Made by a program: the position numbers and the translations under genes | The notes under the pieces: model-generated | What the model was told of the DNA's origin: nothing | Databases searched by the model: none | The model's input: the letters and a program-made list of their open reading frames with translations, nothing else | NCBI RefSeq assembly: GCF_025961475.1 | Contig: NZ_JAOQNS010000012.1 | Location: 124,001-188,000 of the forward strand | Source: Rhodobium gokarnense | GTDB lineage: Bacteria; Pseudomonadota; Alphaproteobacteria; Rhizobiales; Rhodobiaceae | Direction of reading: 5' to 3' | DNA: 64,000 nucleotides | Shown: positions 45,504 through 51,008 of the stretch, piece by piece | Layout of the letters: each line of letters opens with the position of its first letter | Numbering within the stretch: position 1 is the first letter of the stretch

Positions 45504-46679
45504 TCAATCGTCCCGCACCGCGCGGCAGAACGCCTCGATCTCTGCTTCCGTATTGTAATAATGGACCGAGGCGCGCACGAGGGCATCGAACCCTCGGCGC
45601 GGCAGGTCCAGTTGGGCGGAGCGGGCCTGGCTGTGGGTGACGTTGATCGAGCGCTTCGACAGCCGCTGGCGGGTGTCGGCCGGCGCCTCGCCCGCCTTCA
45701 GGAAGGTGACGATGCCACATTTCTCGGCGCCGAGGTCGTGCACCGACACGCCGGGGATGTTTTCAAGCTCGCGCCGGAGCGTATCGGCCAGCATCTTCAC
45801 CCGCGCCTCGATCGCCCCCATGCCGAGTTTTGCGGCATAGCGGGCAGCGACGCCGAGGGCGATCTGGCCGGCGACGTAGCGCTCCCAGTTCTCGAAACGC
45901 TTTGCGTCCGGCTTCCATTCGAAGCTCTCCGCGTCGAGCCAGTCGGCGGCGGCGAGATCGACGAAGGGCGGCTCAAGCTCCGGGATCGCGGAACGGTCGA
46001 CCCAGAGGAAGCCGGTGCCGCGCGGGCCGCGGAGGTACTTCCGCCCGGTCGCCGACAGCATGGTGCAGCCGATTTCCTTGACGTTCACATCGAGCTGGCC
46101 GACCGACTGGCAGGCATCGAGCAGGTACGGAATGCCGAAGCGGCGGGCGACGTCGCCGACGGCCGCGGCCGGATTGACCAGCCCGCCCTGGGTCGGCACG
46201 TGGGTGATGGCGATCAACCGGGTCTTCGGCGCGACCATGTTCTCAAGGACGGCGACGTCGATCTGGCCGTGCTCGTCGTCCGGTACGACGTCGATCTCGA
46301 TGCCGGCGCGGTCCTTCATCTGCAGGAAGGCGACGTAGTTGGAGACGTATTCGGAGCGGCAGGTGATGATCCGGTCGCCCTCGCGGAACGGGACGGCGTA
46401 GAACGCCATGTCCCAGGCGCGGGTGGCGTTCTCGACGAAGGCCACCTCGCCCGGCTCGCCGCCGATGAGGTCGGCGATCGCCGGATAGAAGTCCGCCACC
46501 TTGGCCGCCGCCGCGCCCGCCGCCTCATAGCCGCCAATCATGGCTTCCAGGTCGATATGCGTCTTGATGGCCTCGACGACGGCGCAGGTCGGCAGGGCCG
46601 ATCCGGCATTGTTGAAATGCAGCACCATCTCCGCGCCCGGCGTCTCGGCGCGCAGGCGATCAATGTCGAGTTCCGGCAT
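45504..46679 (-). CDS. Class V aminotransferase family protein
   Basis: 391 residues, PLP-dependent fold type I. It opens [12 protein letters not shown], the usual cofactor-phosphate region; [14 protein letters not shown] contains the Asp that binds the pyridine nitrogen; [19 protein letters not shown] carries the PLP lysine (about residue 214). The family includes cysteine desulfurases, isopenicillin-N epimerases and selenocysteine lyases. A conserved catalytic cysteine of desulfurases is not obvious, so the reaction is open. Divergent from the GGCT-like gene. Confidence 0.88.
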
Positions 46680-46813: not shown

Positions 46814-47404
46814 ATGACCTACATGATCGCCGTCTTCGGCTACGGCTCCCTCGTCAACCAGGCGACCCTGCCGGCCGGGACGACCAGCATGCCCGGCACG
46901 CTTTCCGGCTTTCGGCGCGCCTGGCGGATCGCCGGCAAGACGCCGATCGGCCATACCTGCGGCCTCACCGCGGAACCGGAGGAAGGCTCGACGATCCGCG
47001 GCACGCTGATCCTTTATCCGCGCTCCGAGCTTGCCGACCTCGACGAACGCGAGTGGCGCTACGACCGGCACGATCTCGACCTTGAGGCCTTCGCGCCAGA
47101 CGGCGATGCCGCCGAGGTGCCCGAGATGCGCATCGTCTACCGGGTGAAGCCGGAGCACGAACGCTGGGGCGACGAGGAGCATCCCGTGATCCAGAGCTAT
47201 GTGGATTGCGTGCTGCGCGGCTATTTCGAGCGCTGGGGCGTCCTCGGCGTGCGCCATTTCGTGGAGACCACCGCCGGCTGGCACATACCGATCCGGCGCG
47301 ACCGTGCCGCGCCGCGCTACCGCCGCGCCGTGCGGATCACGGCCGAGGAGGAAGCCCTCTTCGACCACGTCCTTGCCGAAGCCGGCGCGCGCTGGATCGA
47401 CTGA
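46814..47404 (+). CDS. Gamma-glutamylcyclotransferase-like protein
   Basis: 196 residues. The N-terminus IAVFGYGSLVN is the GGCT-fold nucleotide/substrate loop (YGSL), and EEGSTIRGTLILYPRSELADLDEREWRYDR contains the family's acidic catalytic region. GGCT enzymes cleave gamma-glutamyl amino acids, or glutathione, to 5-oxoproline. This member is longer at the C-terminus (FERWGVLGVRHFVETTAGWHIPI) and could act on another substrate. ATG 46814 was chosen; followed by an R3 palindrome. Confidence 0.8.
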   Translation: MTYMIAVFGYGSLVNQATLPAGTTSMPGTLSGFRRAWRIAGKTPIGHTCGLTAEPEEGSTIRGTLILYPRSELADLDEREWRYDRHDLDLEAFAPDGDAAEVPEMRIVYRVKPEHERWGDEEHPVIQSYVDCVLRGYFERWGVLGVRHFVETTAGWHIPIRRDRAAPRYRRAVRITAEEEALFDHVLAEAGARWID

Positions 47405-47411
47405 AAAGGAA

Positions 47412-47490
47412 CTGGATTGCCGCGTCGGCCTTTCGGCCTCCTCGCAATGACATCGGTTATTGTCATTGCGAGCGGAGCGAAACAATCCAG
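47412..47490. repeat. REP-like palindrome, family R3 full copy
   Basis: CTGGATTG (47412-47419) and CAATCCAG (47483-47490) are terminal inverted repeats; inside, GCAATGACA (47444) faces TGTCATTGC (47461). The left half recurs at 20857-20899. A common kind of dispersed intergenic palindrome that can form a long hairpin. Confidence 0.75.
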
Positions 47491-47569
47491 TGCAGCCGTC
47501 TACTACCAGTGCCGCTCGGGTTAAAAATGCAGCCCTGCGACAACCAACGCAGACCGAAATGGTCGACCG

Positions 47570-49507
47570 CTATTTCGCCAGCGGCTTCCTGAGGCGGATG
47601 GTGTCGATCTCGGTGCCGGCCAGATCGTCGAAGCGCTTTTCGCGCGAGCGGTCGGAAAAACCGCGGGTGCGGAAGAACCGCAGCGCGCGGCGGTTGCCGG
47701 CGAAGAGATCGAGGTCGACGTGTTTGGCGCCGGTCGCGGCAACGCCTTCCTCGAGCGCTGCCAGCAGCGCCTCGCCGGCACCGTTCGCCCAGGCGCTCGG
47801 CGCCACCCAGATCTCGCTGATATCCCCTTGCCGTGCGGCAACGATGGCAAAGCCCACCGGCTCGCCGTCGAGGGTCGCGACCAGCACCGGGCCGCCGGCC
47901 GATGCCAGGAGGTGCTCGAACGGCCTTTCGTCGCGCAGCCGCCTCCAGGCGTCGCCGGCGAGCTGCGAGCCGATCGAGGCCTGCCAGGAATGCATGCCGA
48001 TCTTGGCGAGGATCGCGAAATCGGTCTCGCGCGCCTCGCGCACGTCAATGCCGGTCGCCGCCTTCACCGCCTCGCCGGCGCCGGCCGATCCCGCGACCGC
48101 TTCGCCGACGCCTGCGGCAGCCGCGTGGGCCTGCGACGCACGGTAGCGCTCGCTCGGCTCGCGCATGGTGACGAGTTCCTCGGCCGCCGTCGGGTGGACG
48201 GCGACGGTGCGGTCGAAATCGGCCTTGGTGGCGCCCATCTTGATGGCAATGCCGAGAAGCTGGGCCATCTCGCCGGCGTCCGGGCCCATGACGTGGACGC
48301 CAAGCACGGTGTCGCTGGCGGCGTCGACGATGACCTTCATCAGCATCCGCTCGTCGCGGCCGGTGAGCGTGTGCTTCATGGCGCGGAAGCGGGCGCGATA
48401 GATGTCGACGGCGTCGAAGCGGTCGCAGGCTTCGTCCTCCGAGAGCCCGACGGTGCCGATCTCCGGCTGGGAGAACACGGCCGTCGCGATATTGGAGTGG
48501 TCGACGGTGACGTTCTTGGCGCCGAACACGGTGTCGGCGAAGGCATGGCCCTCGCGGATCGCCACCGGGGTCAGGTTGACCCGGTCGGTGGCATCGCCGA
48601 CGGCGTAGATCGAGGCAACGGACGACTTCGACTGGGCATCGACGACGACGGCGCCGTTCCTGGTCAGTTCGACACCGGCCTCTTCAAGGCCGAGCCCGGC
48701 CGTCGCCGGGCGCCGGCCGATGGCGTACATGATCTGGTCCGCCTCGATGGTGCGGCCGGCTTCCGTCTGGCCGACCAGCCCGCTCCCGCCCTTCTCGATG
48801 GCGGTGAAGCGGTCGCCGGTGATGACGTCGATGCCCTTCTTTTCCATCTCTTCGTGGAGCAGCGTGCGCAGGTCCATGTCGAAGCCGCGCAGGATCTCCT
48901 CGCCGCGATAGAGCAGCGTCGTCTTGGCGCCGAGGCCGGCGAAGATGCCGGCGAACTCCACGGCGATGTAGCCGCCGCCGACCACCGTTACCCGCTCGGG
49001 GAAGTCCTCCAGATGGAAGGCCTCGTTGGAGGTGATGGCGTGCTCTATGCCGGAGACAGAACTGTCGAGGAAGGGCGCCGCGCCGGTCGCAATCAGGATG
49101 TACTTGGCGGAAACCGTGCGGTCGTCGGCCAGGAGCCGGACCTCGTTCGGGCCGGCGACGACCGCCCGGCTCAAGACGATTTCGACGCCGGAGCGTTCCA
49201 GGTTGGCGAGATAGACCTTGTTGAGCCGGTCGATCTCGCGGTCCTTGTTGGCGATCAGCGTCTTCCAGTCAAAGGCCGTCGCGCCGACCGACCAGCCGAA
49301 GCCGGCGGCGTCCTCGAATTCCTCGGCGAATTTGGAGGCATAGACGAACAGCTTCTTCGGCACGCAGCCGCGGATGACGCAGGTGCCGCCGACCCGGTAC
49401 TCCTCGGCGATGGCGACTTTGGCCCCGTATCCCGCAGCGATCCGCGCGGCCCGCACGCCGCCCGATCCGGCCCCGATGACGAAAAGATCGTAGTCGTAGC
49501 CGCCCAT
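47570..49507 (-). CDS. gor: Glutathione reductase fused to a GNAT acetyltransferase domain
   Basis: 645 residues, one uninterrupted frame. Residues 1-456 are a full glutathione-disulfide reductase: FVIGAGSGGVRAARIAA, redox pair Cys43/Cys48 (GGTCVIRGCVPKK), the NADPH site VVGGGYIAVEFAGIFAGLG, AVGDATDRVNLTPVA, and the catalytic HPTAAEE near residue 438. An Ala/Gly linker follows (457-486). Residues 487-645 form a GNAT domain: IDVREARETDFAILAKIG, ISEIWVAPSAWANGAGEALLAALEEG (acetyl-CoA loop, degenerate: no clear Q/R-x-x-G-x-G/A) and ALRFFRTRGFSDRSREKRFD. Usual Gor length is about 450-460. Likely third gene of rpiA-DUF2059-gor. The role of the GNAT part is unknown. Confidence 0.9.
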   Translation of the reverse strand: MGGYDYDLFVIGAGSGGVRAARIAAGYGAKVAIAEEYRVGGTCVIRGCVPKKLFVYASKFAEEFEDAAGFGWSVGATAFDWKTLIANKDREIDRLNKVYLANLERSGVEIVLSRAVVAGPNEVRLLADDRTVSAKYILIATGAAPFLDSSVSGIEHAITSNEAFHLEDFPERVTVVGGGYIAVEFAGIFAGLGAKTTLLYRGEEILRGFDMDLRTLLHEEMEKKGIDVITGDRFTAIEKGGSGLVGQTEAGRTIEADQIMYAIGRRPATAGLGLEEAGVELTRNGAVVVDAQSKSSVASIYAVGDATDRVNLTPVAIREGHAFADTVFGAKNVTVDHSNIATAVFSQPEIGTVGLSEDEACDRFDAVDIYRARFRAMKHTLTGRDERMLMKVIVDAASDTVLGVHVMGPDAGEMAQLLGIAIKMGATKADFDRTVAVHPTAAEELVTMREPSERYRASQAHAAAAGVGEAVAGSAGAGEAVKAATGIDVREARETDFAILAKIGMHSWQASIGSQLAGDAWRRLRDERPFEHLLASAGGPVLVATLDGEPVGFAIVAARQGDISEIWVAPSAWANGAGEALLAALEEGVAATGAKHVDLDLFAGNRRALRFFRTRGFSDRSREKRFDDLAGTEIDTIRLRKPLAK

Positions 49508-49595
49508 GGGGGCCTCCTTACTGGCCGGACCGGAAGACCGGTCCGGCACGCATTACGCAAAACCTACTGAAAACGGGGACGCGCCCTAGCGGCGC

Positions 49596-50132
49596 CTATT
49601 CGGACTTTTCAGGCGCGGACGCGGCGATCTTTTCCATTTCCTTCTGGGCCTTTTCCAGCATGTCGATGCCGAGCTGGTTGCGGTATTCCCGGGCCGCGCC
49701 GATCGACAGGGTCGACAGCTCGGCCGACTTCTCGGCCAGCTTGGCGCCGACCGGCGAGGTGTAGAATTTGGTGATCTCTTCCAGCTCTTCCTTGGTGAAG
49801 CGGCGGGCCCAGATCTCCTCGATCATCTTGTCGAGTTCGACGCGCTTGCCGGCCATGGAGAGCGCGACATCGTTGACCATGGCGTCGATCTCGCGGGCGA
49901 ACTCCGGATTCTGGCGCACGAGCTGCTGCTTGGTCTGGTCGGCGACGATCGGCAGGATCTCGTCGAAGCCGTAGTTGGAGCGGGTCGCCTCGACCGCGGC
50001 TTCCGCGGCCTTCAGGTGCTCGGGAGCAAAGGTTTCGTCCTGGGCGGCCGCCGGCGTCAGGCGCAGGGCACCGACGACGAGCATGACGGCCAGCGCCAGC
50101 GCGGCGGTGCCGACAGTTTTGGAAAGGGTCAT
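49596..50132 (-). CDS. DUF2059 periplasmic protein
   Basis: 178 residues with a signal peptide (residues 1-30, ending TPAAAQ). The helical DUF2059 domain follows: ILPIVADQTKQQLVRQNPEFAREI and EEIWARRFTKEELEEITKFYTSPVGAKLAEKS, the latter being the family signature. Function unknown. Fixed between rpiA and gor in many Rhizobiales. The start ATG 50132 follows GGAGATAGAC. Distances (44 bases to rpiA, 88 to gor) fit a three-gene operon. Confidence 0.92.
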   Translation of the reverse strand: MTLSKTVGTAALALAVMLVVGALRLTPAAAQDETFAPEHLKAAEAAVEATRSNYGFDEILPIVADQTKQQLVRQNPEFAREIDAMVNDVALSMAGKRVELDKMIEEIWARRFTKEELEEITKFYTSPVGAKLAEKSAELSTLSIGAAREYRNQLGIDMLEKAQKEMEKIAASAPEKSE

Positions 50133-50176
50133 GTCTATCTCCGTTCGGTGACGGTGCGTGCCGTCATGTGGATCTC

Positions 50177-50866
50177 TCAGGCTTTCAGGCATTCGGTGCC
50201 ATCGGGACCCGCCACATAGGCGGCGTCCGCAATGCCGATGAACAGCCCGTGCTCGACCACGCCCGGAATGGCGCCGAGCGATTCGCTCAACGCTTCTGGC
50301 GCGGCAATCTGGCGAAAAGATGCATCGAGGATGTAATGCCCGCCATCGGTGATGAAAGGGGCCTCCTTGCCGCCGCGCAGGACGATCTCGCCGGTGAGGC
50401 CGAGAGCCGAGGCGTTCGACATGATCGACCGCCGCGTCGACTCCAGCCCGAAGGGCACGACCTCGATCGGCAGCGGGAAGGCACCGATCATGCGCACCAG
50501 CTTGGAGCTGTCGGCGATCACCACCATGCGGGCGGAGGCCGTGGCGACGATCTTTTCACGCAGGAGCGCCCCGCCGCCGCCCTTGACCAGGCGCAGATAG
50601 CGATCGAGTTCGTCGGCGCCGTCGACGGTCAGGTCGAGTTCGGGCGTCTCGTCGAGGGTGGAGAGCGGAATGCCGAGTTCGCCGGCAAGCTCGGCCGTGC
50701 GTTCCGAGGTCGGCACCGCCAGAATGTCGAGGCCGGCGGCGACCTTTTCGCCGATCAGCCGGGTGAAATGGTCGGCCGTCGAGCCGGTGCCGAGGCCGAG
50801 CCGCATGCCGGACTGCACTTCGGCGAGCGCAGCTTGAGCAGCGGCGCGCTTGAATTCGTCGCTCAT
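50177..50866 (-). CDS. rpiA: Ribose-5-phosphate isomerase A
   Basis: Interconverts ribose-5-phosphate and ribulose-5-phosphate in the pentose phosphate pathway. 229 residues. Conserved: [11 protein letters not shown] (phosphate loop), [10 protein letters not shown] (catalytic acids) and [13 protein letters not shown] (lysine and catalytic glutamate). ATG 50866 rather than a GTG nine bases earlier. First gene of the operon with DUF2059 and gor. The pathway makes NADPH, the electron donor of Gor, a sensible pairing. Confidence 0.95.
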
Positions 50867-51008
50867 TAGGATCACACGCTCCCGAATGTGCCGTTCCCCG
50901 TCGGCCGCTGATTAGCATGGCCGGCGCCGGGCGCCAAGTTATCGCGAAGGGATGCGGCCGGCGCGGATGCTGCGCCGGCCGGCCGGTATTACAGTGCCTG
51001 CAGGCGGA

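Follow-up and report, generated by a model that had tools for sequence, protein, structure and literature searches.

The window, a stretch of 64,000 nucleotides from Rhodobium gokarnense, contains a single open frame in which a glutathione reductase (Gor) is followed by an Ala/Gly-rich linker and a GNAT acetyltransferase domain. Genes for a DUF2059 protein and RpiA lie upstream of it, and a gene for a weakly gamma-glutamylcyclotransferase-like protein (hereafter GGACT-like) lies on its other side (Table 1).

Table 1. Coordinates of the fused gene, its parts and its neighbours in the window
Feature	Position	Strand	Basis or remark
Fused gene gor-GNAT	47570..49507	minus	645 aa, open frame from ATG 49507 to TAG
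Glutathione reductase part, residues 1-456, redox-active GTCVIRGCVPKK	48140..49507	minus	TIGR01424, Pyr_redox_2, Pyr_redox_dim
Ala/Gly-rich linker, residues 457-486, fast evolving	48050..48139	minus	pLDDT, dN/dS
GNAT domain, residues 487-645	47573..48049	minus	PF00583, AF2, VIA-align, residue tables
Shine-Dalgarno-like AAGGAGG ahead of the gor ATG	49513..49519	minus	Read from the sequence
DUF2059 protein, upstream of the fused gene, start codon uncertain	49596..50192	minus	PF09832, E 9e-12
rpiA, upstream of the fused gene	50177..50875	minus	TIGR00021, 256.1 bits over 126.4
Weakly gamma-glutamylcyclotransferase-like protein (FGYGSLVN)	46814..47404	plus	PF06094 GGACT, 22.8 bits, exactly at cut-off

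The fused protein and its parts

Pfam matches in the fused protein are Pyr_redox_2 at residues 6-320, Pyr_redox_dim at 340-448 and Acetyltransf_1 (PF00583) at 523-617, the last with an E-value of 1.1e-12 and 48.7 bits (cut-off 20.7). The NCBIfam model TIGR01424 scores 665.7 bits over residues 4-449 (667.1 bits when the whole genome is searched), which is above its cut-off of 606.05 and bears out the initial annotation of residues 1-456 as a complete glutathione reductase. The genome search gave no second Gor above this cut-off, and the fused protein is therefore the only recognised Gor of the genome. Both the redox-active Cys pair and the C-terminal His-Pro...Glu-Glu are present in the Gor part, and C43, C48, H438, P439, E443 and E444 are invariant in the 19 rows of the alignment made for the fold, which leaves out the stand-alone GNAT row and the Gor row L097. 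Judged by its model score and conserved residues, the Gor part is a true glutathione reductase.

The GNAT domain that the initial annotation placed at the C-terminus, from its layout, is recovered by the PF00583 match and by structure prediction. The AF2 run on residues 480-645 alone gave the GNAT strand-helix order with a mean pLDDT of 82.2 and a pTM of 0.78, values that rest on three aligned rows only, and the same part is poorer in the full-length model (pLDDT 58-77 per block of ten). As modelled, the C-terminal part is a true GNAT fold. Its closest solved chain is 2fiw from Rhodopseudomonas palustris (VIA-align Z 18.6, 154 aligned residues, rmsd 3.0, 26% identity), which is also the best match in a sequence search of the PDB (E 9.3e-7) and whose title carries no substrate name. 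Since the top eight chains (Z 18.0-18.6) mix kinds as different as PaiA, YjaB and an Ard1, and 979 of the 999 aligned chains score a Z of at least 8 against the domain, the structure cannot discriminate the substrate. Nor did any NCBIfam subfamily model exceed its cut-off for the GNAT domain or its stand-alone relatives, hence these models name no substrate. RimI (TIGR01575) is the best-scoring of them for the fused domain and also for three stand-alone relatives. Identity with RimI was rejected at 36.7 bits, far under the cut-off of 86.4, and identity with the mycothiol synthase MshD (TIGR03448) at 12 bits against 163.1.

The existence of a linker between the two parts fits the full-length AF2 model, in which residues 458-483 have a pLDDT below 50. 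Between the window and R. orientis, the linker has a dN/dS of 0.27 and an identity of 70%. A search of the linker for a tandem repeat found none, and an origin from repeats was rejected. As for translation starts inside the fused gene, all five fused genes described below have ATG448, which follows a GAGGAA-like stretch at a distance of about 9 nt and is encoded by AEELVTM, residues that are conserved in Gor regardless of fusion. A GTG stands at the start of the GNAT domain (V489 or its equivalent) in four of the five, without a clear ribosome site. A free GNAT could be produced from either start, going by these codons. The promoter scan at the locus gave no promoter, and the one terminator-like site found (47553-47534) compares with a mean of 2.5 in shuffled sequences.

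Genomic setting

Of 80 surveyed gor loci, 72 have rpiA upstream and 37 have DUF2059 there. Because rpiA is this common, the rpiA-gor order carries no information on the fusion. The initial annotation had taken an rpiA-DUF2059-gor operon as a link between NADPH supply and thiol reduction, and this reading is dropped, as the arrangement is ordinary for the group. RpiA itself produces no NADPH.

In the three genomes of the window's genus, the GGACT-like gene and the fused gene converge. In all 18 Cohaesibacter loci, which carry a separate GNAT gene behind gor, it is found 14-242 nt past the GNAT stop on the same strand, and 17 of the 80 surveyed loci have a relative downstream of gor. None was seen within the short flanks of the loci from family f49 and from the metagenome-assembled genome (MAG) G078. 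The assignment to the family is weak: three of eight members match Pfam at E 0.01, the Cohaesibacter copy gives no match at that threshold, and a search of the PDB up to E 0.1 gave no match. All eight rows of its alignment share FGYGSLVN and E80. Tentatively, this neighbour may tie the gor-GNAT unit to glutathione breakdown.

Two further features were observed on this side of the fused gene. A palindromic dispersed repeat of about 80-90 bases lies at 47412-47491, between the fused and the GGACT-like gene, with at least 44 matches in the genome including itself (40 of 151 candidates scored), which are 73-100% identical and in some cases half-length. A class V aminotransferase-fold PLP protein is encoded on the minus strand at 45504-46679. 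The SufS and EgtE models are nearest to it at 172 bits each, under both cut-offs, and it could be a C-S lyase or a cysteine desulfurase-like enzyme. A relative is found downstream of gor in 12 of the 80 loci, mostly in Stappia and Roseibium.

Distribution of the fusion and of the separate gene pair

The fusion is present in five genomes of two families. Besides the window, these are R. orientis DSM 11290 (G002, locus L039, assembly contig NZ_NPEV01000003), with 93% identity to the window protein over residues 1-644, and G001, G050 and G086 with 71%, 61% and 59%. Family searches found it in 3/3 genomes of the window's family and in 2/2 of family f49 (G050 and G086), and a whole-protein search of 61 genomes returned full-length partners in G002, G001 and G050. 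Of 397 sampled genomes of the order, 79 had a GNAT match at E<=1e-8. An open frame of at least 600 aa, the length needed by Gor plus GNAT, occurred among these matches in the five fused genomes only, and these frames contain Gor. The class sample had a Gor match in 219 of 385 genomes; among the matches listed, the window's own is the only one that runs through the GNAT part. The view that there is no standard Gor-GNAT architecture therefore holds in the sampled genomes, which show the join in five only.

A separate GNAT gene was found directly behind gor in all 18 Cohaesibacter genomes examined and in MAG G078. Relative to the gor stop, a GNAT start codon lies at -8 to +89 nt in 17 of the Cohaesibacter genomes. 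In the remaining one (G366, locus L167) the gor frame is interrupted, and the gor and GNAT matches are about 44 nt apart. At this locus the best gor match has 55% identity over residues 48-457 with one stop, and the GNAT frame is open. At two loci (L150 and L151) only one stop codon, TAG or TAA, separates gor from the GNAT gene, and both genes lie in the same frame. Relatives in which the two parts are separate genes, which the initial annotation had considered as a sign of a false join, thus do exist, but they stand side by side and in other genera, and the reading of the join as an artefact falls.

Among the 20 genomes of the family to which G084 belongs, the 18 members of genus g70 (Cohaesibacter) have the GNAT gene behind gor. 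In G378 no gor match reached the threshold, and G045, which belongs to a different genus, has gor but no GNAT gene behind it. Likewise, G037 and G112, relatives of MAG G078, have no GNAT behind gor. By profile, the 80 surveyed loci comprise one fused gene (L039), one with a separate GNAT (L049, Cohaesibacter celericrescens) and 78 with neither, L058 and L073 offering less than 1 kb downstream.

The separate genes are distant from the fused domain, with 25-32% identity for the Cohaesibacter copies. A search with the fused domain gave a match at E<=1e-8 in 11 of 17 sampled Cohaesibacter genomes, one in each and always the gor neighbour, and no match at this threshold in the other six. Five of the 18 Cohaesibacter neighbours were missed by tblastn at 1e-7 and detected only by the profile, which was made from fused and neighbouring copies together.

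Active-site residues of the GNAT domain

The acetyl-CoA loop of the fused domain reads WANGAG at residues 573-578. It had been described as lacking a clear motif, which overstates the change: the G-x-G is intact, and motif A (Q/R-x-x-G-x-G/A) is altered just at its first residue, which is W in place of Q/R. This W is found in all five fused copies and also in the unfused G078 copy; in the 18 Cohaesibacter copies, Q or H stands there instead.

The suspicion of a weakened catalytic signature is, on the other hand, strengthened by a second site. Among the noted residues N605, R607, F611 and F612 of the fused domain, position 612 is Tyr in the stand-alone neighbours. A Tyr in motif B of GNATs is a frequent catalytic general acid. 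This motif-B Tyr (FY..GF) is absent from all five fused copies, with F in four and L in one, whereas it is kept in all 19 stand-alone gor neighbours. Among 22 unlinked GNATs, a set that excludes seven long or gappy rows (six of the eight GNATs from the window's own genome and L146), 18 have Y and 4 have F. Because the Tyr is not universal in GNATs, F612 lowers the claim of canonical catalysis and not that of the fold. Moreover, the five fused copies represent two lineages at most, so the absence of the Tyr does not amount to five independent losses. The fusion accompanies an altered active site, but F alone is no proof of lost activity.

Selection and origin of the fusion

A comparison of the window with R. 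orientis gives a dN/dS of 0.105 for the Gor part and 0.138 for the GNAT part. For distant pairs, the values are 0.52-0.87 for GNAT versus 0.19-0.45 for Gor. The method of calculation ignores codon bias, which lowers dS in such GC-rich genes. Purifying selection on the GNAT part is firm for the close pair of the window and R. orientis only.

The fused GNATs form one clade in the full GNAT tree (support 99/97) and, with weaker support, in a reduced tree that drops seven unlinked rows with long branches or gaps (80/37). A single clade of all gor-linked GNATs is not rejected (p 0.334). In the Gor tree, from which L167 was left out as too short, the two fused families fall in separate places. Constraining the five fused Gor parts to a clade was rejected at a p-AU of 0.043, which changed to 0.0002 with G078 added and to 0.0096 with all linked copies.

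The fusion very probably arose by the joining of neighbouring genes: a GNAT gene downstream of gor would have been joined to it by loss of the intervening stop. Since Gor parts from the two fused families fail to group, the history may comprise two fusions of one ancestral gene pair that was lost many times, or a transfer of the 3' part between lineages; it is also possible that the Gor tree misleads.

Proposed function and alternatives

Both parts of the protein belong to known families, and what is new is their combination and the conserved gene pair. No description of a Gor-GNAT fusion or pair appeared among the titles and starts of abstracts listed from the open-access literature. We know of no acetyltransferase-fold partner of glutathione reductase. 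A conserved gene pair that has turned into a fusion is good guilt-by-association evidence, and on this evidence a protein of the acetyltransferase fold would work together with Gor. This raises the question of whether one protein brings together the chemistry of acetyl-CoA and that of glutathione.

We read the GNAT part as a putative tethered accessory domain of glutathione metabolism, either an unusual acetyltransferase or an acetyl-CoA-binding regulator. Of the two, acetylation of an amine from the glutathione pool is our preferred reading, and an acetyl-CoA-sensing regulator comes second. The thiol-linked substrate and the acetyl-CoA sensor suggested in the initial annotation are speculative. 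The C-terminus of Gor helps to build the glutathione site at the dimer interface. The flexible linker of about 30 residues would hold a GNAT on every Gor subunit near this site, where the GNAT would bind acetyl-CoA via the kept G-x-G loop. The acetyl group would then go to glutathione or to a gamma-glutamyl or cysteinyl derivative, in a transfer that may be slower in the fused form or proceed without Tyr as the general acid. Taken as a whole, this explanation (joined neighbours, a tether and acetylation of a small molecule) has slightly less than an even chance of being correct. That the substrate of the GNAT is a small molecule with an amino group, drawn from the glutathione pool, is a tentative proposal that we hold with less confidence. 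It is rather doubtful, though conceivable, that Rhodobium, Cohaesibacter and their relatives have a hitherto undescribed gor-GNAT-cyclotransferase branch of glutathione metabolism in which the reductase-tethered GNAT N-acetylates glutathione or a derivative, or in which the acetyl-CoA level switches the reductase.

The regulator could be a degenerate, non-catalytic GNAT that binds acetyl-CoA or CoA and adjusts the activity of Gor to the carbon and redox status of the cell. Such a sensor might explain why the fused copies have lost the motif-B Tyr that the 19 stand-alone neighbours keep, why motif A has changed from Q/R to W in all five with the G-x-G kept, and why the GNAT part is under purifying selection between the window and R. 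orientis. However, F also occurs in 4/22 unlinked GNATs, so that F alone does not mark a dead enzyme, the W of motif A is shared with the unfused G078 copy, and the AF2 model, a monomer with a low-confidence linker, gives no structural sign of contact between the domains. We consider this alternative unlikely.

Somewhat less probable still is a neutral fusion, in which loss of the stop left the working of both proteins unchanged (with some GNAT perhaps also made alone) and the tether has no role of its own. The neighbour state with a single in-frame stop is what such an event would start from, and the linker is variable and fast-evolving. ATG448 and its GAGGAA-like stretch in all five fused genes would also suit a GNAT made alone, though the Gor residues AEELVTM encode this codon anyway. 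Against neutrality, the join is kept in five genomes of two families, and among gor-linked GNATs the loss of the Tyr is confined to the fused copies.

The GNAT might instead acetylate protein, at a lysine or an N-terminus, and perhaps modify Gor itself from on board. RimI is the top NCBIfam model for the fused domain and for three stand-alone relatives, and Ard1, RimI and Naa50 are among the best 50 chains of VIA-align. Yet every RimI score is far under the cut-off, the mixture of PaiA, YjaB and an Ard1 among the top eight chains makes the fold indecisive, and a narrow search of open-access literature gave no report of Gor acetylation; we regard protein acetylation as improbable. An assembly or sequencing artefact, a frameshift or a one-off missed stop has practically no chance of being the explanation; nothing was found in its favour, and it is ruled out by the same frame in the window and four other genomes, including R. 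orientis on NZ_NPEV01000003, and by the GNAT dN/dS of 0.14 between the window and R. orientis.

Comparison with known systems

The Gor part shares the common features of alphaproteobacterial Gor (TIGR01424): full length, a score over the cut-off, the redox Cys pair and rpiA upstream. The unfused Gor frames (129 examined, some genomes twice) end at residue 449-474, except for the interrupted L167, whereas the window protein continues into the GNAT. Compared with the GNAT superfamily and 2fiw, the fused domain has the same fold and G-x-G loop, and differs in having W for Q/R in motif A and F for Tyr in motif B and in being fused to Gor.

RimI provides the best NCBIfam model for the fused domain, yet the score is far below its cut-off. 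Mycothiol synthase MshD is a tandem GNAT that acts on a low-molecular-weight thiol. It resembles the role proposed here in being a GNAT of thiol metabolism, but the GNAT of the window is not a member of its family (12 bits), and we know of no MshD fused to a disulfide reductase. The stand-alone GNATs of Cohaesibacter and G078 share with the fused domain the position behind gor and the matches to GNAT models, but differ from it in being separate genes, in keeping the motif-B Tyr and, in Cohaesibacter, in having Q or H in motif A.
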